DNA from: an uncultured Paracoccaceae bacterium
Lineage (GTDB): Bacteria; Pseudomonadota; Alphaproteobacteria; Rhodobacterales; Rhodobacteraceae
Length of the DNA: 64,000 nucleotides
Assembly: GCA_951812305.1 (NCBI GenBank)
Contig: CATOSB010000008.1
Location: 434,001 to 498,000, forward strand
Direction: 5' to 3'
A program made the translations under genes and the position numbers. The notes below the pieces were generated by a model that did not search any database, was not told where the DNA came from, and saw nothing but the letters and a program-made list of their open reading frames with translations. This document shows positions 4,968-62,770 of this stretch, piece by piece (positions within the stretch are counted from its first letter, which is position 1; each line of letters begins with the position of its first letter).

Positions 4968-5532
4968 GTTGGCCTCCTTCGCTGCATTGGCATATTAACC
5001 TGAGTTCTGGATAAGCGCTATATCTGGTATTCGACCTGCCTGATTGTTTCCGGCACGGTTATGGGTCCCATTTTAACTTTGGTTTTCCCGAGCATATAGG
5101 CTGCGACACACGAGATGAGGTGTACGAATGCGTTGGCAGGCGATCTGTGTCGAGTGTGTTCCAGTCCCATGCTGGTTTTCAACTTATCGAACAGAGTTTC
5201 GATGATGAACCGCCTTCGCAACAGGATTTTGTTCAGGATTGGCAGGAGATAGTTTTTCATGTTGCGGCGAATGCCGGTGACGAGGTGGAGCCCACGCTGC
5301 CAGAGCCGTTGGAAGAGGGATTTGGAGATATAGCCCTTATCAGCAAATATTTTGCCTTCGAGGCCCGCGATCATGGCTTCAAACGGCTTTCGATCATCGA
5401 CATTACCTGCCGTGATTTTGACGGCCATGATCTCCCCCTTGTTGTTGATGATTAGATGCAGTTTGAAGCCAAAGAACCAGCCCATTGTGCTGCGACCGCG
5501 CTTTGCCAGCCCCTTGAAGACCTTGTTTCGAT

Positions 5533-13071: not shown

Positions 13072-14672
13072 GTAACTCCCAAGCACCCCCCACGTTTGAG
13101 TGTTATTGTCAGTTTTATGGTGAGTCGAATTTGCCATTTTGCGCGTGTTTTTTTTCTTTCTTGTCTGAATTCTGTGGCGCCGGGTTGATTTCTCTGAATC
13201 AGTGGTGGGATGGATCAGGTTGCCGCCCTTGAACAACTTCTCGCCACGGCTCTGCGTCGGATCGCTGAGCTTGAAGCTGCGTTGGCGAGCATGGCGGAAG
13301 AGATCACGGACCTGCGCCGACAGTTGGCCAAGAACAGCAGCAATAGCAGCAAGCCCCCTTCAAGTGATGGCCTGAAGAAGCCAGCCCCGCGCAGCCTGCG
13401 TGGCAAATCCGGAAAGAAAAGTGGCGGCCAAGTTGGCCACCGGGGCGACACCCTGCGCCAGACGTCAACACCCGACTTTGTCGAACGGCATGAGGCGACG
13501 CATTGCAGCGCCTGTCAGAGCGCCCTGACGGCGGAGATGGTGAAAGGGATCGAGAAGCGTCAGGTGTTCGACTTGCCTGCGCCACGCCTGGAGGTCACCG
13601 AGCATCAGGCGGCGGTTTATTGTTGCGACCATTGTCGAGCCACGACGACGGCTGGCTTTCCCGATGGCGTGGCCGCGCATGTGCAATATGGCACGCGCAT
13701 GCGGGCAGTGGCGGTCTATTGCAATGTTCAGCAGCTGATACCCGAGGATCGGGTCTGCCAGCTTATGCGCGACCTGTTTGGGGCCACCAGCTTGTGCGCG
13801 GCCAGCGTGACCAACTGGACGCGCGGCGCGGCAAATAAGATGGGTGTCGTGGTTGAACACATTCTCGCCCGGCTTGCCGAAGGCGGCGTTCGGCATCTGG
13901 ACGAGACCGGACTTCGTGTTGCCGGCAAGCTGCACTGGCTGCACACGATCTGCGATACCGCCTTCACCCATTACCGCATCAGCGCCAAACGCGGTGCTGT
14001 TCCAACCTTCCTGACCGGCGGGACGATCATTCATGATCACTGGAAACCCTACTACGCCCATATGAGCGGAGTGGACGCCCACGCCCTCTGCGGGGCGCAT
14101 CACTTGCGCGAACTCAAGGCCATCGAAGAGATCGAAAAAGAGCCTTGGGCGACGGAGATGAGCGCAGTGCTTCATAGCGCCAATCAGCTCAGATGCGCGG
14201 CTCAGGATCAAGGCGAGACCGAACTCCCGGAACTGGTTCGCCAGGGTATAGTCACCAGATACATGGCGATCCTCGCCAAGGGGCTCGCCTTCCACGAACG
14301 CCAGCCCCCGCTGGCCAAAAGCCCCGGCACCCGCGGCCGAAAAGCCAGGCGGCCAGGCCACAACCTGCTCCTCCGCCTGCGTGACTACCGCGATGACGTT
14401 TTGCGATTCATCGCCGACTTCGCGGTCCCATTCACAAACAATCAGGCCGAACAGGACCTGCGCATGATGAAGCTGCGCATGAAAATCTCGGGCACCTTCC
14501 GCACCCTCGAGGGCGCGCGGGTCTTCGCCGACATCAGGTCCGTCATCTCGACGGCCAGAAAACACCGGTTCAACATCCTGGAAATCCTGACCCTGTCACC
14601 ACCTCAGATCATCGCACGGCTCTGACGGAACAAAACCCCGCAACCCTATCGGACAGGGTGCTTGGGAGTTAC
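13072..14672 (+). mobile_element. ISBst12-type (IS66 family) IS, copy B, 1601 bp
   Basis: Same TIRs; TSD CATTTGAA (13064-13071 / 14673-14680). Confidence 0.93.
13210..14625 (+). CDS. IS66-family (ISBst12 type) transposase, copy B (HERQPP variant)
   Basis: 471 aa, one residue differs from copy A (R to Q in HERRPP). Confidence 0.93.
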   Translation: MDQVAALEQLLATALRRIAELEAALASMAEEITDLRRQLAKNSSNSSKPPSSDGLKKPAPRSLRGKSGKKSGGQVGHRGDTLRQTSTPDFVERHEATHCSACQSALTAEMVKGIEKRQVFDLPAPRLEVTEHQAAVYCCDHCRATTTAGFPDGVAAHVQYGTRMRAVAVYCNVQQLIPEDRVCQLMRDLFGATSLCAASVTNWTRGAANKMGVVVEHILARLAEGGVRHLDETGLRVAGKLHWLHTICDTAFTHYRISAKRGAVPTFLTGGTIIHDHWKPYYAHMSGVDAHALCGAHHLRELKAIEEIEKEPWATEMSAVLHSANQLRCAAQDQGETELPELVRQGIVTRYMAILAKGLAFHERQPPLAKSPGTRGRKARRPGHNLLLRLRDYRDDVLRFIADFAVPFTNNQAEQDLRMMKLRMKISGTFRTLEGARVFADIRSVISTARKHRFNILEILTLSPPQIIARL

Positions 14673-20624: not shown

Positions 20625-22225
20625 GTAACTCCCAAGCACCCTGTCCGATAGGGTTGCGGGGTTTTGTTCCGTCAGAGCCGTGCGATGATCTGAGGTGGTG
20701 ACAGGGTCAGGATTTCCAGGATGTTGAACCGGTGTTTTCTGGCCGTCGAGATGACGGACCTGATGTCGGCGAAGACCCGCGCGCCCTCGAGGGTGCGGAA
20801 GGTGCCCGAGATTTTCATGCGCAGCTTCATCATGCGCAGGTCCTGTTCGGCCTGATTGTTTGTGAATGGGACCGCGAAGTCGGCGATGAATCGCAAAACG
20901 TCATCGCGGTAGTCACGCAGGCGGAGGAGCAGGTTGTGGCCTGGCCGCCTGGCTTTTCGGCCGCGGGTGCCGGGGCTTTTGGCCAGCGGGGGCCGGCGTT
21001 CGTGGAAGGCGAGCCCCTTGGCGAGGATCGCCATGTATCTGGTGACTATACCCTGGCGAACCAGTTCCGGGAGTTCGGTCTCGCCTTGATCCTGAGCCGC
21101 GCATCTGAGCTGATTGGCGCTATGAAGCACTGCGCTCATCTCCGTCGCCCAAGGCTCTTTTTCGATCTCTTCGATGGCCTTGAGTTCGCGCAAGTGATGC
21201 GCCCCGCAGAGGGCGTGGGCGTCCACTCCGCTCATATGGGCGTAGTAGGGTTTCCAGTGATCATGAATGATCGTCCCGCCGGTCAGGAAGGTTGGAACAG
21301 CACCGCGTTTGGCGCTGATGCGGTAATGGGTGAAGGCGGTATCGCAGATCGTGTGCAGCCAGTGCAGCTTGCCGGCAACACGAAGTCCGGTCTCGTCCAG
21401 ATGCCGAACGCCGCCTTCGGCAAGCCGGGCGAGAATGTGTTCAACCACGACACCCATCTTATTTGCCGCGCCGCGCGTCCAGTTGGTCACGCTGGCCGCG
21501 CACAAGCTGGTGGCCCCAAACAGGTCGCGCATAAGCTGGCAGACCCGATCCTCGGGTATCAGCTGCTGAACATTGCAATAGACCGCCACTGCCCGCATGC
21601 GCGTGCCATATTGCACATGCGCGGCCACGCCATCGGGAAAGCCAGCCGTCGTCGTGGCTCGACAATGGTCGCAACAATAAACCGCCGCCTGATGCTCGGT
21701 GACCTCCAGGCGTGGCGCAGGCAAGTCGAACACCTGACGCTTCTCGATCCCTTTCACCATCTCCGCCGTCAGGGCGCTCTGACAGGCGCTGCAATGCGTC
21801 GCCTCATGCCGTTCGACAAAGTCGGGTGTTGACGTCTGGCGCAGGGTGTCGCCCCGGTGGCCAACTTGGCCGCCACTTTTCTTTCCGGATTTGCCACGCA
21901 GGCTGCGCGGGGCTGGCTTCTTCAGGCCATCACTTGAAGGGGGCTTGCTGCTATTGCTGCTGTTCTTGGCCAACTGTCGGCGCAGGTCCGTGATCTCTTC
22001 CGCCATGCTCGCCAACGCAGCTTCAAGCTCAGCGATCCGACGCAGAGCCGTGGCGAGAAGTTGTTCAAGGGCGGCAACCTGATCCATCCCACCACTGATT
22101 CAGAGAAATCAACCCGGCGCCACAGAATTCAGACAAGAAAGAAAAAAAACACGCGCAAAATGGCAAATTCGACTCACCATAAAACTGACAATAACACTCA
22201 AACGTGGGGGGTGCTTGGGAGTTAC
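20625..22225 (-). mobile_element. ISBst12-type (IS66 family) IS, copy C, 1601 bp
   Basis: Same TIRs; TSD GTTTTTTG (20617-20624 / 22226-22233). Confidence 0.93.
20672..22087 (-). CDS. IS66-family (ISBst12 type) transposase, copy C
   Basis: 471 aa identical in translation to copy A. Confidence 0.93.
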   Translation of the reverse strand: MDQVAALEQLLATALRRIAELEAALASMAEEITDLRRQLAKNSSNSSKPPSSDGLKKPAPRSLRGKSGKKSGGQVGHRGDTLRQTSTPDFVERHEATHCSACQSALTAEMVKGIEKRQVFDLPAPRLEVTEHQAAVYCCDHCRATTTAGFPDGVAAHVQYGTRMRAVAVYCNVQQLIPEDRVCQLMRDLFGATSLCAASVTNWTRGAANKMGVVVEHILARLAEGGVRHLDETGLRVAGKLHWLHTICDTAFTHYRISAKRGAVPTFLTGGTIIHDHWKPYYAHMSGVDAHALCGAHHLRELKAIEEIEKEPWATEMSAVLHSANQLRCAAQDQGETELPELVRQGIVTRYMAILAKGLAFHERRPPLAKSPGTRGRKARRPGHNLLLRLRDYRDDVLRFIADFAVPFTNNQAEQDLRMMKLRMKISGTFRTLEGARVFADIRSVISTARKHRFNILEILTLSPPQIIARL

Positions 22226-35500: not shown

Positions 35501-37101
35501 GTAACTCCCAAGCACCCTGTCCGATAGGGTTGCGGGGTTTTGTTCCGTCAGAGCCGTGCGATGATCTGAGGTGGTGACAGGGTCAGGATTTCCAGGATGT
35601 TGAACCGGTGTTTTCTGGCCGTCGAGATGACGGACCTGATGTCGGCGAAGACCCGCGCGCCCTCGAGGGTGCGGAAGGTGCCCGAGATTTTCATGCGCAG
35701 CTTCATCATGCGCAGGTCCTGTTCGGCCTGATTGTTTGTGAATGGGACCGCGAAGTCGGCGATGAATCGCAAAACGTCATCGCGGTAGTCACGCAGGCGG
35801 AGGAGCAGGTTGTGGCCTGGCCGCCTGGCTTTTCGGCCGCGGGTGCCGGGGCTTTTGGCCAGCGGGGGCCGGCGTTCGTGGAAGGCGAGCCCCTTGGCGA
35901 GGATCGCCATGTATCTGGTGACTATACCCTGGCGAACCAGTTCCGGGAGTTCGGTCTCGCCTTGATCCTGAGCCGCGCATCTGAGCTGATTGGCGCTATG
36001 AAGCACTGCGCTCATCTCCGTCGCCCAAGGCTCTTTTTCGATCTCTTCGATGGCCTTGAGTTCGCGCAAGTGATGCGCCCCGCAGAGGGCGTGGGCGTCC
36101 ACTCCGCTCATATGGGCGTAGTAGGGTTTCCAGTGATCATGAATGATCGTCCCGCCGGTCAGGAAGGTTGGAACAGCACCGCGTTTGGCGCTGATGCGGT
36201 AATGGGTGAAGGCGGTATCGCAGATCGTGTGCAGCCAGTGCAGCTTGCCGGCAACACGAAGTCCGGTCTCGTCCAGATGCCGAACGCCGCCTTCGGCAAG
36301 CCGGGCGAGAATGTGTTCAACCACGACACCCATCTTATTTGCCGCGCCGCGCGTCCAGTTGGTCACGCTGGCCGCGCACAAGCTGGTGGCCCCAAACAGG
36401 TCGCGCATAAGCTGGCAGACCCGATCCTCGGGTATCAGCTGCTGAACATTGCAATAGACCGCCACTGCCCGCATGCGCGTGCCATATTGCACATGCGCGG
36501 CCACGCCATCGGGAAAGCCAGCCGTCGTCGTGGCTCGACAATGGTCGCAACAATAAACCGCCGCCTGATGCTCGGTGACCTCCAGGCGTGGCGCAGGCAA
36601 GTCGAACACCTGACGCTTCTCGATCCCTTTCACCATCTCCGCCGTCAGGGCGCTCTGACAGGCGCTGCAATGCGTCGCCTCATGCCGTTCGACAAAGTCG
36701 GGTGTTGACGTCTGGCGCAGGGTGTCGCCCCGGTGGCCAACTTGGCCGCCACTTTTCTTTCCGGATTTGCCACGCAGGCTGCGCGGGGCTGGCTTCTTCA
36801 GGCCATCACTTGAAGGGGGCTTGCTGCTATTGCTGCTGTTCTTGGCCAACTGTCGGCGCAGGTCCGTGATCTCTTCCGCCATGCTCGCCAACGCAGCTTC
36901 AAGCTCAGCGATCCGACGCAGAGCCGTGGCGAGAAGTTGTTCAAGGGCGGCAACCTGATCCATCCCACCACTGATTCAGAGAAATCAACCCGGCGCCACA
37001 GAATTCAGACAAGAAAGAAAAAAAACACGCGCAAAATGGCAAATTCGACTCACCATAAAACTGACAATAACACTCAAACGTGGGGGGTGCTTGGGAGTTA
37101 C
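35501..37101 (-). mobile_element. ISBst12-type (IS66 family) IS, copy D, 1601 bp
   Basis: Same TIRs; TSD CTCTCTTC (35493-35500 / 37102-37109). Confidence 0.93.
35548..36963 (-). CDS. IS66-family (ISBst12 type) transposase, copy D
   Basis: 471 aa, identical translation to copy A. Confidence 0.93.
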
Positions 37102-39988: not shown

Positions 39989-40004
39989 ATATACAACCTC
40001 AAAT

Positions 40005-41604
40005 GTAACTCCCAAGCACCCCCCACGTTTGAGTGTTATTGTCAGTTTTATGGTGAGTCGAATTTGCCATTTTGCGCGTGTTTTTTTCTTTCTTGTCTGA
40101 ATTCTGTGGCGCCGGGTTGATTTCTCTGAATCAGTGGTGGGATGGATCAGGTTGCCGCCCTTGAACAACTTCTCGCCACGGCTCTGCGTCGGATCGCTGA
40201 GCTTGAAGCTGCGTTGGCGAGCATGGCGGAAGAGATCACGGACCTGCGCCGACAGTTGGCCAAGAACAGCAGCAATAGCAGCAAGCCCCCTTCAAGTGAT
40301 GGCCTGAAGAAGCCAGCCCCGCGCAGCCTGCGTGGCAAATCCGGAAAGAAAAGTGGCGGCCAAGTTGGCCACCGGGGCGACACCCTGCGCCAGACGTCAA
40401 CACCCGACTTTGTCGAACGGCATGAGGCGACGCATTGCAGCGCCTGTCAGAGCGCCCTGACGGCGGAGATGGTGAAAGGGATCGAGAAGCGTCAGGTGTT
40501 CGACTTGCCTGCGCCACGCCTGGAGGTCACCGAGCATCAGGCGGCGGTTTATTGTTGCGACCATTGTCGAGCCACGACGACGGCTGGCTTTCCCGATGGC
40601 GTGGCCGCGCATGTGCAATATGGCACGCGCATGCGGGCAGTGGCGGTCTATTGCAATGTTCAGCAGCTGATACCCGAGGATCGGGTCTGCCAGCTTATGC
40701 GCGACCTGTTTGGGGCCACCAGCTTGTGCGCGGCCAGCGTGACCAACTGGACGCGCGGCGCGGCAAATAAGATGGGTGTCGTGGTTGAACACATTCTCGC
40801 CCGGCTTGCCGAAGGCGGCGTTCGGCATCTGGACGAGACCGGACTTCGTGTTGCCGGCAAGCTGCACTGGCTGCACACGATCTGCGATACCGCCTTCACC
40901 CATTACCGCATCAGCGCCAAACGCGGTGCTGTTCCAACCTTCCTGACCGGCGGGACGATCATTCATGATCACTGGAAACCCTACTACGCCCATATGAGCG
41001 GAGTGGACGCCCACGCCCTCTGCGGGGCGCATCACTTGCGCGAACTCAAGGCCATCGAAGAGATCGAAAAAGAGCCTTGGGCGACGGAGATGAGCGCAGT
41101 GCTTCATAGCGCCAATCAGCTCAGATGCGCGGCTCAGGATCAAGGCGAGACCGAACTCCCGGAACTGGTTCGCCAGGGTATAGTCACCAGATACATGGCG
41201 ATCCTCGCCAAGGGGCTCGCCTTCCACGAACGCCAGCCCCCGCTGGCCAAAAGCCCCGGCACCCGCGGCCGAAAAGCCAGGCGGCCAGGCCACAACCTGC
41301 TCCTCCGCCTGCGTGACTACCGCGATGACGTTTTGCGATTCATCGCCGACTTCGCGGTCCCATTCACAAACAATCAGGCCGAACAGGACCTGCGCATGAT
41401 GAAGCTGCGCATGAAAATCTCGGGCACCTTCCGCACCCTCGAGGGCGCGCGGGTCTTCGCCGACATCAGGTCCGTCATCTCGACGGCCAGAAAACACCGG
41501 TTCAACATCCTGGAAATCCTGACCCTGTCACCACCTCAGATCATCGCACGGCTCTGACGGAACAAAACCCCGCAACCCTATCGGACAGGGTGCTTGGGAG
41601 TTAC
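40005..41604 (+). mobile_element. ISBst12-type (IS66 family) IS, copy E, 1600 bp
   Basis: Same TIRs; TSD CCTCAAAT (39997-40004 / 41605-41612); one T shorter in the GTGTTTTTTTC run than other copies. Confidence 0.93.
40142..41557 (+). CDS. IS66-family (ISBst12 type) transposase, copy E (HERQPP variant)
   Basis: 471 aa as copy B. Confidence 0.93.
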   Translation: MDQVAALEQLLATALRRIAELEAALASMAEEITDLRRQLAKNSSNSSKPPSSDGLKKPAPRSLRGKSGKKSGGQVGHRGDTLRQTSTPDFVERHEATHCSACQSALTAEMVKGIEKRQVFDLPAPRLEVTEHQAAVYCCDHCRATTTAGFPDGVAAHVQYGTRMRAVAVYCNVQQLIPEDRVCQLMRDLFGATSLCAASVTNWTRGAANKMGVVVEHILARLAEGGVRHLDETGLRVAGKLHWLHTICDTAFTHYRISAKRGAVPTFLTGGTIIHDHWKPYYAHMSGVDAHALCGAHHLRELKAIEEIEKEPWATEMSAVLHSANQLRCAAQDQGETELPELVRQGIVTRYMAILAKGLAFHERQPPLAKSPGTRGRKARRPGHNLLLRLRDYRDDVLRFIADFAVPFTNNQAEQDLRMMKLRMKISGTFRTLEGARVFADIRSVISTARKHRFNILEILTLSPPQIIARL

Positions 41605-48528: not shown

Positions 48529-50882
<2,354 letters not shown>

Positions 50883-51010
50883 CGCGCCGCGACAATCAAA
50901 AACAACAAAACCCTTGATCGCGGACAAAAAGCCCGCCACCATCACAAACGTCGCGACCAAGGATTCTCATCCTGATTGACGCGCACTTCTCATCTTGATT
51001 GTCGCGCTGC

Positions 51011-51324
51011 ACGAGGTGTTCTCGACGGGTTTTTTTGCGGGCCGCATAGCACAGCAGATTCTCCACCTTTAGCCCCAGCTGAGCTGCGATGAAACGGGAG
51101 ACGGCTTCCGGGATCACCTCGCCCGGCTTCAATAGCCGACCAGGATAGCGCAGGACGCAAAGCTGAAGCGCAAAGCCGATCTGGTTCTCCGGCCGCCTGC
51201 GCGTCCGGATGTGCTCGATATCATCATCCGCCAAGGTGTAGTGCTGTAGCAGGGCAGGTTCGCCCGTGGGCAGGTCGAAGAGAGCGGTCCGCTGACGATG
51301 CGTCAGAACATTGCGTCTTGGCAT
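51011..51324 (-). pseudogene. Tn3-family transposase, N-terminal (DUF4158-type) fragment
   Basis: MPRRNVLTHRQRTALFDLPTGEPALLQHYTLADDDIEHIRTRRRPENQIGFALQLCVLRYPGRLL...CYAARKKTRREHLVQ, cut at the IS21 end. Confidence 0.88.
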
Positions 51325-51356
51325 GAAATTTGTCCTTTTGAAGGAGTGTCTGTTCA

Positions 51357-52136
51357 GTGCAAAATCCACGTCAACAAAATCAACGAGTTGCAGGACGAAA
51401 ATCCAGGGCGGTTCAATTGGGACAACGCGCCGCCATCTATGCCAGAGTGTCCACTTCGGACCAATCCTGTGATCGGCAGGTCGCGGATCTAAAGCGTTTC
51501 GCGATTAAGCTGAGACACAGCTTGATTGTGAAACGCATGCAAAATCAGTATGTTGCGGGCGTTTTAACATAATATTGTGATTCAACATCATGTCAAAACG
51601 CTTTAACCGCTTTTGCAAAGCGCAGCGATTACGATGTTATCGATATCTTCCGAGAAACAGCCTCAGGCTCCAAAGTGAGCCGAGCGGCGCGCAACCGGAT
51701 CATGAAGCTTGCACAGGCCCATCAGATTGATGCCATTCTCGTCACGGAACTGTCCAGATGGGGTCGTTCAACACAAGACTTGCTGGGAACACTGGATCAA
51801 CTGGCCGGCTGGAAGGTGCCGGTGGTTGCGATGAGCGGTATGACCTTCGAACTCGACACGCCGCACGGGCGCATGATGGCGACGATGCTGGCCGGGATCG
51901 CCCAATTCGAGCGCGACATGCTAAGCGAGCGTGTCAAGTCCGGGCTGGCCGCAGCCCGCGCCCGAGGCAAAAAGCTCGGTCGTCAGCCAGGTCAAAGACC
52001 GGTATCAGACACGCTCGCTCCGAAGGTCATTCGGGCTGTCAGCGAAGGTCGTAGTTATCGCTGGATAGCCCGAGACCTCGGGATCAGCAAAAATACCGTC
52101 CTCAACATCATGAAAAGACACCGGGAGAATCCTTAG
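51357..52136 (+). pseudogene. tnpR: Tn3-associated serine resolvase interrupted by a 112-bp MITE
   Basis: GQRAAIYARVSTSDQSCDRQVADL | MITE | TAFAKRSDYDVIDIFRETASGSKVSRAARNRIMKLAQ...; removing 112 bp plus one TA restores the frame. Confidence 0.85.
51492..51603. mobile_element. 112-bp MITE, IS630/Tc1-like (TA target)
   Basis: Flanked by TA (51490-51491 / 51604-51605); termini AAGCGTTTCG... / ...CAAAACGCTT; internal hairpin GTTTCGCGATTAAGCTG-AGACA-CAGCTTGATTGTGAAAC. Confidence 0.75.
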
Positions 52137-52167
52137 CCCGATTCCGCCCCCTCCGGTAATCGACCCC

Positions 52168-52593
52168 ATGAAGGACGTCGCTGCCAAGCGGCGCAGGTTC
52201 GGTTATCGGCGGATCGGCGTGATGCTGGAGCGCAAGGGGATGATCCTGCCCCGCGTCGATGCAGAGGCAATGTGCCTGCACCTTCAAGAAATCGCCAAAA
52301 CGGTTGCGACAGGCGCACATGCGCTCCTGATCATGGATGGTGCGGGATGGCATCAGGCCAAAGCACTCGAAGTGCCTGAAAGCATCACACTCCTGAAGCT
52401 TCCAGCCTACGCGCCAGAACTCAACCCGATGGAAAATGTCTGGGCCTACCTGCGGGCAAACAAACTCGCCATTACGGTCTTCGATAGCCACGAGGATATT
52501 CTCGACAAGTGCCAAGACGCATGGAACTTCTTCGAAAACGATCCCGAGCGCATATCATCAATAACAAGCCGCGACTGGGCAACGGTCAAGTGA
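52168..52593 (+). pseudogene. Chimeric ORF: IS3 OrfB fragment fused to an IS630 transposase C-terminal fragment
   Basis: MKDVAAKRRRFGYRRIGVMLERKGMI (IS3 OrfB) then LPRVDAEAMCLHLQEIAKTVATGAHALLIMDGAGWHQAKALEVP...LPAYAPELNPMENVWAYLR (IS630). Confidence 0.82.
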
Positions 52594-52608
52594 TCAAGCC
52601 GCTGGTAT

Positions 52609-52927
52609 CAGAGGGCTGATCGGAGGCAAGGCTCGGGAACAGACGTTCCTCGACAATTGGCCCGATGTGTTGCGATGCACCGCAACGATGCTCTCCGGCA
52701 AGGTGGCGCCGAGCCAGATGCTGAAGCAATTGTCGGCCCGTCCGCGCCAGCATGATCTTGCCATTGCTCTTCGGGAAATCGGACGGATCGAACGGACGCT
52801 GTTCATGATCGAGTGGGCGTTGAGTATCGACATGCAGCGTCGGGCCAATATCGGGCTCAACAAGGGTGAATCGCACCACGCTCTGAAAAACGCATTACGG
52901 ATCGGTCGTCAGGGCGAGATGAGGTAG
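52609..52927 (+). pseudogene. Tn3-family transposase C-terminal fragment
   Basis: FLDNWPDVLRCTATMLSGKVAPSQMLKQLSARPRQHDLAIALREIGRIERTLFMIEWALSIDMQRRANIGLNKGESHHALKNAL. Confidence 0.85.
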
Positions 52928-52929
52928 GG

Positions 52930-53145
52930 CTATTCGGCGGGTGCGTCCGCCAGGTCGAGGCGTCGCTCGATGCGATCTAAGCGGCGTTCCATCCGGTCCA
53001 GTCGGAGAGCATGGGCCGCGATGGTTTGCGACATTCCCGCTATCTCCGTTCGCATAATGCGCACTTCGTCTTCGATGTTAGTCAACCGCCCTTGAATGGC
53101 TTTCAGGTGCTCAAGCAGTAGTTCGTTTGTGACGGTATTAGGCAT
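52930..53145 (-). CDS. 71-aa coiled-coil protein, unknown function
   Basis: MPNTVTNELLLEHLKAIQGRLTNIEDEVRIMRTEIAGMSQTIAAHALRLDRMERRLDRIERRLDLADAPAE; overlaps upstream ORF. Confidence 0.65.
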   Translation of the reverse strand: MPNTVTNELLLEHLKAIQGRLTNIEDEVRIMRTEIAGMSQTIAAHALRLDRMERRLDRIERRLDLADAPAE

Positions 53146-53293
53146 CGGTTGAAATCTCCTCGTAAGCCGCTTGGGCCATGTCGGCCTCGCGGCGGGGGTA
53201 TGTCCTGCCGCCTGCCTCGAAGGTGCGGCCCAAGTGATCGGCCCAGTTGTCGCGCTCTGCGTTCGTCAGCCCGTGCCACCACGTGACCGCCAT
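53138..53293 (-). CDS. 51-aa hypothetical protein
   Basis: MAVTWWHGLTNAERDNWADHLGRTFEAGGRTYPRREADMAQAAYEEISTDA*; starts 2 nt after the YefM stop; below ORF-track cutoff. Confidence 0.55.
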   Translation of the reverse strand: MAVTWWHGLTNAERDNWADHLGRTFEAGGRTYPRREADMAQAAYEEISTDA

Positions 53294-53295
53294 TT

Positions 53296-53493
53296 TTACC
53301 GCAAGCGGGATGCGTTTTTTGGTGTGGACAAGAGGTGCAACGTCTCGTTGACGGCGTTCCAGGTTTCCAGGGACACAACCACGACGGACTCGCCTTTCTT
53401 GCGCGTCACGACAACTTCCTGCTTGTCATGGGTCGCCCTGTCCATGACGCCCTTCAGCTGAGCGCGTGCGTTTGAGTAGGTCATAACATCCAT
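53296..53493 (-). CDS. YefM/Phd-family antitoxin
   Basis: MDVMTYSNARAQLKGVMDRATHDKQEVVVTRKKGESVVVVSLETWNAVNETLHLLSTPKNASRL. Confidence 0.9.
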   Translation of the reverse strand: MDVMTYSNARAQLKGVMDRATHDKQEVVVTRKKGESVVVVSLETWNAVNETLHLLSTPKNASRLR

Positions 53494-53517
53494 GTCAACT
53501 CCTGTGATGCAAGGTTT

Positions 53518-54786
53518 TCAAAAGCGCCGCTCCAATCCGAGAGCCACGGAATGGGTCCGCCAGGAAAACGCCTTGATGTCCGATTTCACCTGGCTGGCCG
53601 ACAGTGTGGCATAAGGTGTAAAGCCATTGCCCAGAACAAGGCGGCTGGTCTCGATTGTCAGGGACACGCCCGTACCGGTTTCATCCGCCGCCGCAGGACC
53701 GGACTTGTCTACCTTCTTGTGCTCAAAGTAGAGACTGGGCCGCAGGGTGATCCCTCTTCCCACACCAAAGGTTCCAGAGGCCGTCAACCGCGCCAGGCGG
53801 TGATTATCGGCGAGCGAGATTGCTGCCTCTCGGTCCACAAGCGACAGGGACAGGCCCAGCGAAGCTCTGGGGGTGAGCGACCATGTGCCACTGAGGCCCA
53901 GGGTTGCAACATGACCGTCCCGGCCGTCTGACCGCAGGTGGTCGATATCCTGCCAGCCGACCCGGATCGCATAGGCCGCGCCCTGACGTGAGCGTATTCT
54001 TGCTTCAGCCTGAAAGCCCAGACGATCTTCCGTTGCTGTCCCGGCCAGAAACTGTCGGGAAACGGAGGGCGAAAACGACAGGGTGGCACGTGGCCATACA
54101 AAGCGGATACCCGCTTCCCCCCTCACCGTCAGGTCATCAAACCGGGAGCCGGGACCTTCTTCGCCCGACAGGGAGAAACCGCCAAAACCCAGTGCCTGAA
54201 CATTCGAGCCGGACAGTCCCGGAAAACCCTGCTTTACAACCCCGCCCAGCCTGTATCGCAAGCCCAGGGCCGTTTCGCCGTCACGGCCGTTAAGTGTGAA
54301 CGGCAACCCGTTCACCATAATTGTATCGCTTTCGTAGCGGCGGGTATTCCCCAGTCGAACAAGGGCAAAATCCACATCCCAATCGACGCCCCGGCGCGCG
54401 TCAATAGCCCGCAAAAAGCCCAGCACATTGTCCCGAACCGGCTCAGGTAATCTTCCCGAAAGCACCGACAGGAATTCACTCCGTGCCTTGCCCCATTGTT
54501 CGGAAAGAAACCAGGCGCGGGCCAATTCAAGCCGCACCCGGTCAAGGTTGGGGTCCCGGGCCAGAATATCCGAAAAGACCTTCGCCGCCTCCCGTGGACG
54601 ATCAGCCGCCACAAGCGACAGCCCAAGCCGGAACCGATGCTCGGTATTCACCTCATGCTGTTCCGGCACCGGAGGCGTGGTTTGGGCTGTTGCGCCGGGC
54701 ACGAAACACCCGGCGCCAATCACCCACAGCGCTGCACAGAATATCCAACTGTGACGACGCCGGTCACGGAACAGCGAAAAGATCAC
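53518..54786 (-). CDS. Surface lipoprotein assembly modifier (Slam, DUF560): TPR N-domain + outer-membrane barrel
   Basis: HRFRLGLSLVAADRPREAAKVFSDILARDPNLDRVRLELARAWFLSEQWGKARSEFLSVL then beta-barrel ending ...TLSASQVKSDIKAFSWRTHSVALGLERRF. Confidence 0.87.
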   Translation of the reverse strand: MIFSLFRDRRRHSWIFCAALWVIGAGCFVPGATAQTTPPVPEQHEVNTEHRFRLGLSLVAADRPREAAKVFSDILARDPNLDRVRLELARAWFLSEQWGKARSEFLSVLSGRLPEPVRDNVLGFLRAIDARRGVDWDVDFALVRLGNTRRYESDTIMVNGLPFTLNGRDGETALGLRYRLGGVVKQGFPGLSGSNVQALGFGGFSLSGEEGPGSRFDDLTVRGEAGIRFVWPRATLSFSPSVSRQFLAGTATEDRLGFQAEARIRSRQGAAYAIRVGWQDIDHLRSDGRDGHVATLGLSGTWSLTPRASLGLSLSLVDREAAISLADNHRLARLTASGTFGVGRGITLRPSLYFEHKKVDKSGPAAADETGTGVSLTIETSRLVLGNGFTPYATLSASQVKSDIKAFSWRTHSVALGLERRF

Positions 54787-55685
54787 TCTGTAATCCTGGC
54801 GCCATAAGCACCGACGATACCGTCTTTATCGAACACACCGGCAGTTTCCTCATGGTTAGGCCCGGCAAAATCACCGCTGATCCCATCGGCCCCATAGCGA
54901 CCGTCTTCCTCAACCGGTACATCTTCAAAAAAGACCCTAGGCGTCTCGTAATCCTTCTCGCGGGTAAGATCCTTGATATCGCTGAAAGTGACATCCAAAT
55001 TTGTATTACTTAAATCGTAGACCAACAGCGCATCCCCTTGCAGGATGTTGCCACGATACGTTCCTTCTCGGGGTGTACCGACCATCAGGCCTTTCCAGGT
55101 TGCATCAGCACTCGGGCGGGTTCCCGTGCGCGTACCACCAGCCCAGCCTAATCTGCCATAAAAGCTGAACTCATCTGGCTCATCAATGATGGTGTACTTT
55201 GTCACCCCAAACGCGGCATACTCCATCCATGCGCCATACGTGCGCAAACTATACTCAAGATTAGTGGATAACCACGTTTCTTCAAGGATCGTGATGCCAT
55301 TTTTTGTGAGAATGGCGCGGAATTGATCCAAATCAACGGTCTCATCATCGTCAATAATGGGCTGGATAGTATCGGAATAAGTATGCGTGAATTTGAGGTT
55401 GGGATTTTCATTGATGAATGTACATTCGTTGGCCGTGCATACACTTGAAAATTCAAAATTAACCCTCTCACCGTTAAGCAAACCTTCGCCATAAAATATA
55501 GTGTGCCGGCCCCAATCCGCCGGAGTCTGCAGCCCCCGTGTAACCGTTTCTGCCGGCTTGCTTCCGCCGGTCAGTTCTTGTGCCTTTTCTGCGTTAATGC
55601 GATCACTGCTACTACCACAGGCTGACAATCCCAGTACCGCAACCATATAGGGGGCCGTTATTGTAAACTGAGCCAAACGGTTCAT
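54783..55685 (-). CDS. Lipoprotein with transferrin-binding-protein-like C-terminal barrel; predicted Slam client
   Basis: MNRLAQFTITAPYMVAVLGLSACGSSSDR lipobox; GTYRGNILQGDALLVYDLSNTNLDVTFSDI...GISGDFAGPNHEETAGVFDKDGIVGAYGA (TbpB-like); ATGA overlap with Slam gene. Confidence 0.8.
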   Translation of the reverse strand: MNRLAQFTITAPYMVAVLGLSACGSSSDRINAEKAQELTGGSKPAETVTRGLQTPADWGRHTIFYGEGLLNGERVNFEFSSVCTANECTFINENPNLKFTHTYSDTIQPIIDDDETVDLDQFRAILTKNGITILEETWLSTNLEYSLRTYGAWMEYAAFGVTKYTIIDEPDEFSFYGRLGWAGGTRTGTRPSADATWKGLMVGTPREGTYRGNILQGDALLVYDLSNTNLDVTFSDIKDLTREKDYETPRVFFEDVPVEEDGRYGADGISGDFAGPNHEETAGVFDKDGIVGAYGARITE

Positions 55686-55758
55686 CTAATATCTCCCTGG
55701 TTCCTAGCGTCACGGGCCGCGTCAGCGAGCTATGCCCGAAAGTTGGTGATGGCCCTCG

Positions 55759-56121
55759 TCAGGCGGCTATTTGAACTTGCTTTATACCGTCTTTGAACGC
55801 AACCCCCTGAATGACTTCGGGTAGACGGTTCGGTCCGGAGATCTTCCGCCACTTTTTCTTCGCTGACATCATCAGCCTGAAGACCATTGCGAGGGCAGTT
55901 TTGCGGTTCAGGCAGCCTTTGGTTTTCCTGGTACGGTTGCGCACCGTGGCAAAGACGCTTTCGATGGGGTTCGTGGTCCTGATGTGCTTCCAGTGTTCGG
56001 CTGGGAAGTCGTAGAAGGCGAGCAGTTCGTCACGGTCTTTGACCAGCTTGCCAACGGCCGTCTCGTATTTCACGCCGTAAGTTTCGACGAAGAGGTCGAA
56101 GGCGGCATTCGCCTCCTTCTT
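55759..56121 (-). pseudogene. IS256-family transposase C-terminal fragment
   Basis: DFPAEHWKHIRTTNPIESVFATVRNRTRKTKGCLNRKTALAMVFRLMMSAKKKWRKISG; cut by the Tn3 end at 56122. Confidence 0.88.
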
Positions 56122-56170
56122 GGGCTGTACGCATGAATGGAACGGTGGGGGGTCATAAGGCTTTGCAAAA

Positions 56171-59100
56171 TTACCATTCGGAATTAGCTTGTCGGAGAGG
56201 ACGCAGTTCCCCGGCGGCGATGTTTTCCGGCAGGGTGAATGCGTGTCTGCCGAGGAAATTGATATGTTTGTGTGTGAGCGGCGATATTCGAGCAACGTCG
56301 GCGGGGTCACTTGCCTGATCTTCTGCTTCGAGTTGGTCGAGCACAGTCTGCATGTAGGTTGCATTCCAATAAGCGATGGCGTTGAGGGTGAATCCGAGCG
56401 CTCCGAGTTGTTCCTCTTGGCCTTGCCGATAAGGTTTGCGGATTTCGCCACGTTCACCGTGACAAACGCGACGTGCGAGACCATGGCGAAGTTCCTGTCG
56501 GTTGAGTTGGATCAAGATGCGCCGCCGCTTTTTCTCATCGTTAATGAAGCTGAGGACGTGCAGGGATTTTATGATCTTACCCAGTTCTCCAAGAGCCTTG
56601 GCGAGTGCGGTAGCGCGCTCACGCACCTGCAGCGTGCGCATGACTGCACCGGCATGGATGTATCCAAGCTTCAGCGATCCGGCCAAGCGCAGCAAATCCT
56701 CCCAGTTCTCAATGATCACCCGGATATTGACCCTGTTACGGGCAAGCGGATCAAGTGGGCCATAGTCGGCTTTCGGATTGATGCGCCAAAGTCGGGTTTG
56801 ACCAATATCGGCGAGGCGCGGGCTGAACTGATAGCCGAGCAACCAAAAGAGTCCGAAGACGATATCGGAATAGGCTGCAGTGTCGGTCATGATTTCCACG
56901 GGATCAAGGTCGGTTTCCTGTTCGAGCAGAAGCGCGAGGATGAACATGCTGTCGCGCAAGGTTCCGGGCACAACGAGGGCATTGAGACCGGTGAACTGAT
57001 CGGAGACCAAGTTGTAGAGCGTGATGCCTCGCCCGGTCTGAAAATACTTCGGGTTTGGCCCGGCATGGATGACGGTTGGCGGAGCGGAGAACCTCACACC
57101 ATCGGCGGAGGCGACATCACCGGCTCCCCAATGATGAACGATTGGCAATTCATTATGAGCGGCGACAAGACGCGCGGTGGCCGCGGTGATTGTTTCAGCT
57201 CGAATGAAGTTCTGGCTGACCCAGGAAAGCCGGTCGCGCTTGAGTGGCTCAAGGGTTGGCTGTGCGATCGGTTCGAAACCAATATTGCAGGCTTCAGCAA
57301 GCAGCACGGCGCACAGGCTGGTCTGGAACCCACCGACCCGCGCCTGTCGTTCCGTGACATGGGTAAAATCCTCTGCAAATCCGGTGCGGGTGGCAACCTC
57401 CAGGAGCACGTCCGAGAGATCGACTTTGGGAAGTCTTTTCCGCATGGAGGATTTCAGTGCCCTCAGGCTGTCTGGCTCTTCGATACGATCAAGTGGCGAA
57501 ACGGCGAGGCGGGCTTTCCCACCTGTAATTTCAATCCTTGCCGCTGGATTGGTGTCGAAATTCTTTGCAGTTCGGCGGTAAGCCTGATCGAGTTGACCAG
57601 CGAGCGTAGCCAGTTCGGCTTGTCCGTCAGGAGAGCGTTCAAGGGCGCGGCATACGGTTGGCTTCGCTGCACGCCAGGCTTCGCCACTCAACAAGCCCCT
57701 CCGGGGGTCATCGAACCGCACACCACCACGCACGAAAATATCGCGGGTTTTGAGAGCGTTTTGCCAAGCCTCGCACGCCGCAAAAACGAAAGCCTTGTTG
57801 TCTTTGACATTCCCCTCGCTATCAAGAGCGTATTTGCACCACCCCCCACGCAGGATGTCAGTCGGCGCATCACGCATATTGGCCTTTCCCCAATTCTCAA
57901 GGCCACGAAGATAGTCGAGCACCTCTTTGACAGGTTGACCCTTGGGCGAAGCGTCAAACGTGATGCGCATAAGGAGGTTACGAAAAAGAGCCTGCGTTGT
58001 GCGCCATTTTGCAAGCAATTCCTCCAGCGGTTTATCTTCGGGTGGTTGGGCCAGAGCGTCGATGCGGTCGGCGGCCTCAGTGAGGGCTCCGAAATTCAAG
58101 TCGGCATAGAGGGCATTGCGCCAGGCTGGGAAAGTAAGGTCTGTGTTGTCATCATCGGTCATAACGCGCCGTGCAAGATCGCGCAGCGTGAGGGCAGCAG
58201 CGTCCAGATCTCCCAGGTTGCGCATCCTTTTTCGCTTACTTGTAGCCTTGGCGTTTCGGAAAATATCCGCCATCAAAGCGTCAAACAGCTCCACCGCGTC
58301 GTCAATGGCAACTGCTTCCAGCGTGTGAAACAAGGCAGCAACAATTGCGGTGCGACGCGGCTCCCTAGCGGCAGCAATAGCAGATGGCCGCATCGTTCTG
58401 GCCACCTTTGCCAGGCGCTGGACGAGCGCATTCGGAACTGTTGCTGGCGGTGGCAGCGCCAACTCGTAAGCGCGAATGGCATCAATGCGATCAAAGTGGC
58501 GTATCAACTCTATCATAGCCCGTTTTGTCGGTGCCGCGCGCAAGGCATCAAGCGTGCGAAACGATCCACCTTCCCCGTCGAGCAGGACGCTAATCTTTCT
58601 ACGCTGTTCGTCCGACAACACATCAGACAAGTTTTGCCACAGCCGCCGATGCGCACGATCACGAATGCGGGCAACGAGGCGTTCCAGGGTGCTGATCCCA
58701 GGCAGCAGAATCTTGTTTGCCAACATCCACGCTGTGGCCCGATCAATCAGCAGGCTCGGTCGATCATCACCAGACCAGCACAGCGCATTAAGCCAACGCG
58801 TCAGGCGAAACCGGGCGCAAGCATCATCGGCCAGCTCTCGAAACCCATAGGTCTTTCGAATGATCGCAGCATGGTGCTTTTTTGGCCGGCCAGTTCTGTA
58901 TGCAGCCAGAGAAGGTGCCGTGGTCAGGTCGAGCTGCGCAGCAAGTGCGTCGACCACGATGTCGGGAACCTCGTCGAACCTACTCGGAAGGACGCCAAGA
59001 AAACGAACGGTTCCAAGCTGAAGGGCGAAGCCCAGACGATTGTGGGCGCCGCGCAAGCGAGCGATGATTTCGCGGTCGGCCGCATCAAGGTGAAAATGCC

Positions 59101-59182
59101 GCGCAATCTGGTCTCGGCTGGGCGATCCATCGTAGCGCCCGTATCGCTCCCGTTGCGCATCACTGAGAAACCGGGTGGGCAT
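56171..59182 (-). CDS. tnpA: Tn3-family transposase TnpA
   Basis: 1003 aa, MPTRFLSDAQRERYGRYDGSPSRDQIARHFHLDAADREIIARLRGAHNRLGFALQLGTVRFLG; C-term DDE region. Confidence 0.95.
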   Translation of the reverse strand: MPTRFLSDAQRERYGRYDGSPSRDQIARHFHLDAADREIIARLRGAHNRLGFALQLGTVRFLGVLPSRFDEVPDIVVDALAAQLDLTTAPSLAAYRTGRPKKHHAAIIRKTYGFRELADDACARFRLTRWLNALCWSGDDRPSLLIDRATAWMLANKILLPGISTLERLVARIRDRAHRRLWQNLSDVLSDEQRRKISVLLDGEGGSFRTLDALRAAPTKRAMIELIRHFDRIDAIRAYELALPPPATVPNALVQRLAKVARTMRPSAIAAAREPRRTAIVAALFHTLEAVAIDDAVELFDALMADIFRNAKATSKRKRMRNLGDLDAAALTLRDLARRVMTDDDNTDLTFPAWRNALYADLNFGALTEAADRIDALAQPPEDKPLEELLAKWRTTQALFRNLLMRITFDASPKGQPVKEVLDYLRGLENWGKANMRDAPTDILRGGWCKYALDSEGNVKDNKAFVFAACEAWQNALKTRDIFVRGGVRFDDPRRGLLSGEAWRAAKPTVCRALERSPDGQAELATLAGQLDQAYRRTAKNFDTNPAARIEITGGKARLAVSPLDRIEEPDSLRALKSSMRKRLPKVDLSDVLLEVATRTGFAEDFTHVTERQARVGGFQTSLCAVLLAEACNIGFEPIAQPTLEPLKRDRLSWVSQNFIRAETITAATARLVAAHNELPIVHHWGAGDVASADGVRFSAPPTVIHAGPNPKYFQTGRGITLYNLVSDQFTGLNALVVPGTLRDSMFILALLLEQETDLDPVEIMTDTAAYSDIVFGLFWLLGYQFSPRLADIGQTRLWRINPKADYGPLDPLARNRVNIRVIIENWEDLLRLAGSLKLGYIHAGAVMRTLQVRERATALAKALGELGKIIKSLHVLSFINDEKKRRRILIQLNRQELRHGLARRVCHGERGEIRKPYRQGQEEQLGALGFTLNAIAYWNATYMQTVLDQLEAEDQASDPADVARISPLTHKHINFLGRHAFTLPENIAAGELRPLRQANSEW

Positions 59183-59313
59183 GCTGTGCGAAACTCACAA
59201 CATTTGCGACGCAGATCGGTCGCTCTGATTCCAAAGGAAAAATCCCTCGCAAAACATATGCGCGAAACAAATCACTTTTGCAATAAGAATCGCACATCAA
59301 GGGAGATGGCCAA

Positions 59314-59874
59314 ATGAAAATTGGCTACGCGAGGGTTTCAACAAAGGATCAGACGCTCGAAATCCAGAGAGACAGGCTCACCAAAGCTGGCTGTGAGTTC
59401 TTCTTCGAAGAGAAGGTCTCTGGTGCGGCCAAAAAACGCCCTGAACTCGAAAAGCTTCTGAGCCAACTGCGCAAAGAGGATGTGGTGGTCGTTACCAAGC
59501 TGGACCGGTTGGCGCGGTCGACAGCCGAACTCCTTCGCATTGCAGAGGCGTTGAACGATAAAAACGCAGGATTACAATCCCTTGACGAGCCTTGGGCAGA
59601 TACCACCAGCCCTACAGGTAAGATGATCATGACCGTCTTTGGGGGTATTGCCGAGTTCGAACGATCGCTGATCCTAACCAGAACACAGGAAGGTCGCGAA
59701 GCCGCTCAGGCCCGGGGCGTCGCCTTCGGTCGCCCCTCAAAGTTACGACAGGATCAAAAGGAAGTCGCCCGAGATCTAGTCAAGAGCGGCCAATCAATCG
59801 CCTCCGTCGCCAGAACCTTCAACGTCCACCCCGCGACCATCTATCGGTGCCTGGACGAAAAACCGGCCTTATGA
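59314..59874 (+). CDS. tnpR: Serine resolvase TnpR
   Basis: MKIGYARVSTKDQTLEIQRDRLTKAGCEFFFEEKVSG...KLDRLARST...IAEFERSLI; C-terminal HTH. Confidence 0.95.
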   Translation: MKIGYARVSTKDQTLEIQRDRLTKAGCEFFFEEKVSGAAKKRPELEKLLSQLRKEDVVVVTKLDRLARSTAELLRIAEALNDKNAGLQSLDEPWADTTSPTGKMIMTVFGGIAEFERSLILTRTQEGREAAQARGVAFGRPSKLRQDQKEVARDLVKSGQSIASVARTFNVHPATIYRCLDEKPAL

Positions 59875-59905
59875 CCCCCCACCGTTCCATTCATGCGTAC
59901 AGCCC

Positions 59906-60525
59906 ATCACTGGGTGTTTATGAGCGAACACGCCGTCGTACATGAGGTTCACCTCAGCCGGGCCGCCCAGGTCGTGCGCGATGTCATGGGCGGGCATCGC
60001 CCGAAGATATGGCTTTCCGATGGGTATTCGGCACAGCAAAACCATGGGCAGCAGCATCAGACCTGCCTGGCCCACCTGGCGCGTGACATCGCTTATGGGG
60101 TTGACGCCAGTCAGGACCGGCTTCCGTTTCAGCTGAAGCTCTGGATGGACCGGGTGTTCGCGCTGGCACATGACGTTACGAGCTATGCCGCCAGCACGAT
60201 CAAGCGCAAGAAACGCGAGTTGGAGCGCAATCTGGCAGAGCTTCTCAGCGCCCCGTCAAACTGCCTATTTGCCGAGGACTTGCGGGGCAAATTGGCACGA
60301 GCCAGCCCAAAGATGCTCACGTTCCTGGACTTTCCCGGCGAGGTCGAGGTCACCAACAACGGTTGCGAGCGCGCTTTGCGCCCTTCGGTGACACAGCGCA
60401 AAGTCACCAACGGCTTCCGGTCAATGTGGGCCGCGAGAGGTGACTGCATGGTCAGAACCGTCGCCGATACAGCCAAAATACGCGGTCAAACCCCCTGGGA
60501 AACCATCAACCTCACCCTCGCTTGA
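59906..60525 (+). pseudogene. IS66-family transposase C-terminal fragment
   Basis: PKIWLSDGYSAQQNHGQQHQTCLAHLARDIAYG...VEVTNNGCERALRPSVTQRKVTNGFRSMWAARG; 5' part lost at the Tn3 end. Confidence 0.8.
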
Positions 60526-60550
60526 AATCTGCGGTAAACAGGGGGTGATA

Positions 60551-61715
60551 CCAAGGGTTATTCAATCTGACCGACTTTCGCCCAGTTGCGGCTTGCGATG
60601 GATGTGATGGTTTGCGGTCTTGCGATGAGGTTGTTCCAGGCCTCGCACCCCGCGTCGAGAATCGCGTCATATGTGTCGAACGTCCGGTTTGCGAGCCATG
60701 TCTGGCGGAGATATTGCCAAATGTTTTCGGTTGGATTCAGCTCTGGTGATTTGGGCGGCAGAAACATGAGCGACAGGTTTTGCGGGATTTCCAGAGCGGA
60801 TGTCGTGTGCCAGCCGGCTTGGTCCATGAGGATGACGGCGTGGGCGCCATCGGAGACAATTTTGCTGATTTCTTCCAGGTGGCGCTGCATCGCATAGGTG
60901 TCGGCTGCTGGCATCATGATCGCCGCGCCGGTGCCGCGTTCGGGGCAGATGGCGCCAAAAAGATACGCATTTTGGTAACGCTGATCGGCGGGCTGGCGGG
61001 GCCGTGTGCCCTTGCGTGCCCACTGGCGGACGCGGGTGTTCTTCTGACCGAGACGCATCTCGTCCTGGAACCAGATTTCGACGGGTTTGTCCGGCGGCAC
61101 CCCCTGAAGCGTCTCCTTCAGATTGTCGCCGAAGTTTTTTTGAAATCCTCAATGACCTGCACGTCCTGCCCCGGGTGCTGAGGGCGTGCGCTGATGTGGG
61201 AAAAGCCCAGATTGTGCAGAATCTGCCCCACATGGCGCTCGTGATAGTCGACGCCAAAACGCGCCTTGATCACATTCTTCAAATCGACCCGCCGCCAGCG
61301 GACGACACCGTCCTTTTCAGGATCAGGACCGGTCTCGACAAGAGCCGCCAGTTCATCCAGTTGCGCATTGTCAAGGCGGGATCGCGAGCCTCCTCGCTGC
61401 CGATCCAGCAGCCCCGCTGGACCATCAGCGTTGAAACGGAGCACCCAGTCCCTGAGCGTTTGCCGGTCCATCCCGCCAATGCGGGCCGCAGCCCCACGCG
61501 ACATGCCATCGGCGATAGCGGCAAGCGACAAAAGCCGTCGGCTCTGCCGGGCATCAGAACTCTCTGCGGCAAGCTTGCGCAGATCATTGGCGGTAAAATC
61601 GGCTCGCATCGGTATCCTGGCTGGCATCGGTGGTCTCCTTTGCCAATCTTGAATCACCTCAGCACCTCAGGCGGTACCCAAAATCCATAGCTGAGTCATT
61701 TTGAAGCACCCTTGG
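60551..61715 (-). mobile_element. IS630-family element, 1165 bp
   Basis: CCAAGGGTTATTCAATCTGAC / GTCATTTTGAAGCACCCTTGG termini, flanked by TA on both sides (60549-60550 / 61716-61717). Confidence 0.85.
60558..61657 (-). CDS. IS630-family transposase in two frames, candidate programmed -1 frameshift at an A7 run
   Basis: N-part 61118-61657 (HTH), C-part ...60558 (EIWFQDEMRLGQ...VILMDQAGWHTT...PPKSPELNPTENIWQYLR); sequence GATTTCAAAAAAACTTC, -1 reading gives DFKKNFGDNLKETLQGVPPDKPVEIW. Confidence 0.82.
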
Positions 61716-61728
61716 TATGAGTAATTAC

Positions 61729-62191
61729 GTTTCAACAAAGGATCAGACGCTCGAAATCCAGAGAGACAGGCTCACCAAAGCTGGCTGTGAGTTCTTCTTC
61801 GAAGAGAAGGTCTCTGGTGCGGCCAAAAAACGCCCTGAACTCGAAAAGCTTCTGAGCCAACTGCGCAAAGAGGATGTGGTGGTCGTTACCAAGCTGGACC
61901 GGTTGGCGCGGTCGACAGCCGAACTCCTTCGCATTGCAGAGGCGTTGAACGATAAAAACGCAGGATTACAATCCCTTGACGAGCCTTGGGCAGATACCAC
62001 CAGCCCTACAGGTAAGATGATCATGACCGTCTTTGGGGGTATTGCCGAGTTCGAACGATCGCTGATCCTAACCAGAACACAGGAAGGTCGCGAAGCCGCT
62101 CAGGCCCGGGGCGTCGCCTTCGGTCGCCCCTCAAAGTTACGACAGGATCAAAAGGAAGTCGCCCGAGATCTAGTCAAGAGCGGCCAATCAA
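61729..62191 (+). pseudogene. Truncated second copy of tnpR (463 bp, apparently identical to 59335-59797)
   Basis: Constant coordinate offset of 2394 nt; translation VSTKDQTLEIQ...DLVKSGQS matches the intact resolvase. Confidence 0.9.
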
Positions 62192-62605
62192 ATTAGTTGA
62201 CCGTATCCTAGCTTTTCTTGCACATGCATGAACTACCGGTTGCCTCGCCTCGCCGTTCCATCAAATTTCTCGCTCATTCAGCATCTGTGACGCTGCCAGC
62301 GCGCGCATCCTCGTATCTCAGCGCTCCTATCGAGCTCACGGGCTACGCGTTCGCCTGACATTTACGTATCGACAACAGTCGCAAGACATTCTCGGCTGAA
62401 GTCATAATCACGTTCAGGATGCGGAACCGACGAACGCAAGACAGGTTGTCAGATACGAAATCTAGTTTCGAGCGCTGATTCCGCCCCTTTTGGGATCCCT
62501 ATCGGTGTTCCGGTGCCCACTGCGCGTTTACGACCGCCCCGATTACCGACTGTTGATACTTCTTCAGGGTAGACCCGATGACCTGCGCCCCGAGGCTCCC
62601 TCATT

Positions 62606-62770
62606 CATAACGAGAGTCTGCAGGTTTGGTTTTCATATTCGTCGTCGTTGTTTTGGGCAAGCGCGCCGGGCGCGGAGCCCTCAAATTGCTCAAGCGTCCG
62701 GCGCGCCTCTGCGGGCGTTTTATTTCCGAGCGATGAGTGCGGCCTGACATTGTTGTACAACAGAACGCCA
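62606..62770 (-). pseudogene. IS3-family OrfB C-terminal fragment
   Basis: Minus-strand reading VLLYNNVRPHSSLGNKTPAEARRTLEQFEGSAPGALAQNNDDEYENQTCRLSL*. Confidence 0.75.

Follow-up and report, generated by a model that had tools for sequence, protein, structure and literature searches.

A probable type 11 secretion (Slam) exporter and its candidate cargo lipoprotein in a transposon-rich region of a Rhodobacteraceae genome

Slam homologues have been reported across all clades of Proteobacteria (PMC5449769), and a survey of type 11 secretion systems (T11SS) placed almost all members of its cluster 3 in the Roseobacteraceae/Rhodobacteraceae, where TonB genes are rare (Grossman et al. 2025, PMC12282271). 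The published syntenic locus of cluster 3 contains thyX, glyoxalase and DUF1194 genes and encodes SPII cargo lipoproteins of 282-375 aa with a C-terminal eight-strand barrel, and these cargos are described as combining an N-terminal effector that varies with a pedestal and a barrel common to all (PMC12282271). Slam/lipoprotein pairs in these families are already known, having been published in 2025, and the contrast that a first-pass annotation drew with Neisseria and related gammaproteobacteria is no surprise in the light of this literature (PMC5449769, PMC12282271).

Here we describe a pair of this kind in a window of 64,000 nucleotides, the whole stretch of DNA that was analysed, from a host that belongs to the family Rhodobacteraceae in the GTDB sense, which upholds the alphaproteobacterial setting read from the sequence. 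The host genome (G000) comprises 7.18 Mb in 39 contigs and carries three copies of the pair, on contigs C8 (the window), C38 and C7. Both open reading frames of the first-pass annotation hold in position and strand (Table 1). We interpret them, with a probability of roughly 90%, as a type 11 secretion (Slam) module made up of two genes, one for an exporter and one for the lipoprotein that it most likely displays.

Table 1. Features of the Slam/cargo pair and its immediate neighbours (window coordinates)
Feature	Coordinates	Strand	Basis
Slam / T11SS outer-membrane translocator, 422 aa	53518..54786	-	SlipAM and TPR_Slam matches, ~40%-identity relatives above SlipAM cut-off, model
Periplasmic TPR helices, residues 43-129	54400..54660	-	Pfam TPR_19 above cut-off; helices in model
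Outer-membrane barrel of 14 strands, residues 133-422, ending in ...ERRF	53521..54390	-	14 long strands in model; final residue aromatic, a trait of outer-membrane proteins
GTGA overlap, cargo stop / Slam start	54783..54786	-	Sequence: cargo ...GAG TGA, Slam GTG ATC
Gene of the cargo, a predicted surface lipoprotein of 300 aa	54783..55685	-	ORF; profile and fold matches to TbpB/NHBA/hemophilin
Lipobox LSAC, lipidated Cys23	55617..55628	-	Sequence; Cys invariant across alignment of 27 cargos
Variable N-terminal effector/pedestal region, residues 24-189, conserved Cys 83 and Cys 88	55119..55616	-	Alignment; mostly low-confidence model; strong divergence between copies in the genome
C-terminal TbpB-type beta-barrel, residues 190-298	54792..55118	-	pLDDT mostly 81-95; PDB matches NHBA, TbpB, LbpB, PmSLP, HphA
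Short YefM/Phd-type antitoxin ORF, neighbour only	53296..53493	-	Pfam PhdYeFM_antitox
3' remnant of an IS256-type (Mutator) transposase, with terminal repeat, neighbour only	55727..56120	-	Pfam Transposase_mut, sequence; repeat end read by eye
Complete Tn3-family element (tnpA, tnpR), neighbour only	56121..59906		41-bp perfect inverted repeats, Pfam

Taken alone, the window Slam protein scored below the Pfam cut-offs for SlipAM (15.4 bits, E 0.013; cut-off 22) and TPR_Slam (21.2 bits; cut-off 35.2), and the SlipAM cut-off was exceeded by same-family relatives with about 40% identity to it (G036, G105 and G271). All seven members of the first Slam alignment (A1) matched SlipAM at E<=0.05, the best of them at 3.6e-33. 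An AlphaFold2 model built from 28 sequences (mean pLDDT 89) displayed five helices in the TPR region (residues 43-129) and 14 long strands from residue 133 to 421, which is the Slam architecture described previously (PMC5449769). No solved Slam was present among the PDB fold matches listed for this model, and these were mostly generic outer-membrane barrels, so that membership of the Slam family rests on sequence, strand number and pairing. The Pfam matches, including TPR_19 above its cut-off, and the high-confidence model confirm the TPR and barrel regions of the protein that the first-pass annotation assigned to the Slam/DUF560 family; the overlap that it had read as ATGA is a 4-nt GTGA, and an ATG start is found in the C7 copy of the Slam gene.

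The upstream gene encodes an SPII signal with a lipobox (MVAVLGLSAC-G), and the C-terminal end of the protein shows the TbpB-type barrel pattern G.F.GP..EE.AG.F......GAYGA. As a single sequence, the cargo scored 12.9 bits against Pfam TbpB_B_D (cut-off 26) and yielded nothing useful in a search against the PDB; a match required the family profile, which hit a solved TbpB at ~1e-3, and 12 of 16 first-round cargo relatives matched TbpB_B_D. Confidence in the structure model is confined to the C-terminal third (residues 190-298), and a Foldseek search with this model returned NHBA, TbpB, LbpB, PmSLP or hemophilin/HphA at every rank from 1 to 43. Residues 96-178 have a pLDDT <50, too low for a ligand to be predicted from the N-terminal domain. 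At the level of sequence and model, these results confirm the predicted lipoprotein with a C-terminal TbpB/NHBA/hemophilin-type beta-barrel, including both the LSAC lipobox, whose cysteine is Cys23, and the TbpB-like barrel that had been noticed at first reading.

Co-occurrence of the two genes was also seen in relatives. A single scan across species genomes, among them Ruegeria, Shimia, further Rhodobacteraceae and a few other proteobacteria, supplied 30 loci of Slam relatives, and a cargo-type gene lay <=400 bp from the Slam gene in 27 of these 30 named relatives, a count whose cargo profile includes some of those same cargos. The first cargo profiles, one of which contained the L095 cargo itself, had already matched in 25 of the 30 loci, with one match 511 bp away and one a fragment. 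A plasmid of Alloyangia pacifica carries, 2 bp apart, genes annotated as 'transferrin-binding protein-like solute binding protein' and 'surface lipoprotein assembly modifier'. A similar cargo/Slam pair is present in Salipiger sp. CCB-MM3. Slam matches were found on plasmids of Alloyangia, Salipiger, Sulfitobacter and Novosphingobium; the plasmid search with the cargo protein gave no match. The Slam/cargo pair is accessory in the family: 17 of 298 family genomes gave a Slam match (E<=1e-5), and the single same-genus genome compared gave no close one.

Among the relatives we also observed genomes rich in cargo-type genes. In G227 and G015 (loci L050-L054 and others) one Slam was found per genome, together with 7-8 genes or gene fragments of the cargo type, the majority of which do not adjoin Slam. 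In three cargo-type lipoproteins an HExxH metalloprotease-like motif precedes the TbpB-type barrel (L030 601-1836 and L047 4094-5668, both in G227, and L117 6705-8168). L030 matches Peptidase_M57 just above the cut-off, and L047, whose gene adjoins a Slam gene, and L117 show the motif only. The 2025 cargo survey does not use the word 'metalloprotease' in its main text (PMC12282271).

The gene order, the lipobox, the cargo barrel fold, the TPR and 14-strand architecture and the pairing kept in relatives were established in this analysis; translocation and surface display of the cargo are inferred by analogy with characterised Slams. The lipoprotein would be exported by Sec, lipidated on Cys23 and taken to the outer membrane, where Slam, with its periplasmic TPR region and 14-strand barrel, would recognise the C-terminal barrel of the cargo and move it to the cell surface. 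There the N-terminal domain would act, probably via the binding of a putative ligand or partner.

Comparison of the three copies bears on how the pair has changed within the genome. Window positions 50430-62757 (12,328 bp) are matched at 100% identity on contig C38, and because this match runs to the contig end, a duplicated assembly of one region is a residual possibility. Beyond 62757 the two differ, with a truncated IS3-type element in the window and a longer one in C38, and the C38 contig ends inside an IS21-type element. In the C7 copy, Slam is 95% identical to the window Slam and the cargo is strongly diverged; a copy of an IS66-type element stands where the cargo 5' end has been lost, leaving the cargo without signal peptide and lipobox, and an IS110-like fragment lies beyond (element types by inspection). 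Downstream, the sequence shared by window and C7 ends ~19 nt beyond the Slam stop.

Compared per 100 nt, the Slam genes of C8 and C7 are 94-100% identical in nucleotides; most of the barrel region has 84-87% identity, and the cargo sequence lying further 5' has 52-71%. The corresponding dS was 0.054 for Slam (bootstrap 0.032-0.081), 0.150 for cargo residues 149-300 (0.082-0.239) and 0.564 for cargo residues 75-148 (0.307-0.973). Since protein-level selection alone does not readily raise dS, this jump at the cargo points to recombination, either by exchange of a cargo segment or by gene conversion of Slam. The cargo gene has a GC content of 49.6% against 60.8% in its Slam, and none of the other pairs in a comparison of 15 shows so wide a gap.

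From this divergence we infer that the cargo, above all its N-terminal region, may have been exchanged or diversified behind a conserved exporter. We tentatively suggest, at less than even odds, that in paralogous surface lipoproteins of the Rhodobacteraceae the N-terminal effector domains are swapped onto a conserved export barrel in the presence of a conserved Slam; mobile copies would, if this were true, change surface specificity without losing the exporter. The jump could also have arisen by gene conversion that homogenises the Slam genes within the genome and leaves cargo alleles unexchanged, a possibility to which we give a limited weight: both copies reside in one genome and the high Slam identity drops at the cargo, but a similar pattern of conserved barrel and variable N-terminus occurs in G192, a genome with a listed completeness of 100% in which no Slam was found. 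Its two cargo paralogues (L048 10931-11614 and L049 9122-10042) resemble each other in the barrel, where dS is 0.199, and have diverged in the N-terminal part, where it is 0.987.

The surroundings of the pair are rich in mobile elements. The Tn3, IS256 and YefM debris listed in the first-pass annotation was confirmed, except that the Tn3 element is no debris: it is complete and self-contained between perfect 41-bp inverted repeats (56121-56161 and 59866-59906), with the pair outside it. Carriage of the pair as a Tn3 passenger is ruled out by these ends, at 56121 and 59906, and no transposon ends bracketing the pair were found, so the proposed spread by transposition was not sustained. An IS66 transposase is also among the mobile debris (Pfam). 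Elsewhere in the window, part of the resolvase gene recurs as a 463-bp exact direct repeat (59335-59797 and 61729-62191), and a 1.6-kb element, IS66-type by inspection and also found at the break in the C7 cargo, is present in five near-identical copies (99.7-100%; 5532-7133, 13072-14672, 20625-22225, 35501-37101 and 40003-41604). As the first reading had it, no TonB receptor adjoins the pair: none was seen among the open reading frames of 48-62 kb (by inspection, with Pfam on eight of them). Given the rarity of TonB genes in cluster 3 T11SS, this absence is normal for that group.

About 40 nt separate the end of the IS256 remnant from the cargo ATG, and the region of the pair gave no sigma-70 promoter match; expression of the pair is therefore uncertain. 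It is conceivable, but on balance rather unlikely, that the pair is a relic whose reading frames are intact and were silenced by the upstream IS256 insertion. The loss of signal peptide and lipobox from the C7 cargo agrees with such decay, as do the remnant and the missing promoter match. Against it, both reading frames are intact in two copies, and the Slam dN/dS relative to the C7 copy, 0.42 (bootstrap 0.22-0.84), indicates some constraint; moreover, promoters can be supplied by IS ends.

Far less probable still is a polysaccharide or small-molecule export porin of the PelB, PgaA or BcsC type with an incidental lipoprotein neighbour, since the TPR-plus-barrel architecture common to both and the presence of PelBC and BcsC among the PDB fold matches of the Slam model are countered by the SlipAM matches, by a modelled 14-strand barrel where that of PgaA is given as 16-stranded (PMC8406197), by the TbpB-fold lipoprotein that adjoins in 27/30 relatives, and by the fact that polysaccharide synthase genes were not seen nearby.

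The Slam module, as we read it, extends the environmental part of the T11SS family, in which we found no experimentally tested member reported, by a duplicated Slam/cargo pair from transposon-rich surroundings. The point worth following is that, between copies in one genome, the exporter is conserved and the cargo is fast-changing. A near-constant exporter combined with such a cargo provides a handle on which part of the cargo Slam recognises, presumably the barrel, as opposed to the part that is free to vary.

Compared with the neisserial Slam1 and Slam2 and their clients TbpB, LbpB, HpuA and fHbp, the window pair has the same translocator plan of TPR and 14 strands, a client of TbpB fold and adjacent genes, but it is remote in sequence, lacks a TonB receptor partner and has a single-barrel cargo. 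Hemophilin/HphA and PmSLP, which are T11SS cargos, resemble the window cargo in their C-terminal barrel, and both are among its PDB fold matches; unlike them, the window cargo showed no link to haem or complement, and its N-terminal region is of low confidence in the model. The window pair also departs from the published cluster 3 locus in its neighbours, as no DUF1194, thyX or glyoxalase gene was found among the open reading frames of 48-62 kb, which, as read and scanned, are mobile-element and antitoxin genes. A separate T11SS OMP in the same genome, on contig C14 (L172 5420-10771), is followed by three DUF1194 genes, like the published locus, and preceded by a lipobox-like reading frame that matches no Pfam family; pairwise comparison of this OMP with the window Slam gave no significant similarity. 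The window pair nevertheless resembles cluster 3 T11SS loci in occurring in the same bacterial families, in placing a T11SS OMP beside an SPII lipoprotein and in a setting where TonB is rare, and, compared by description, it fits the published account of cluster 3 cargo.
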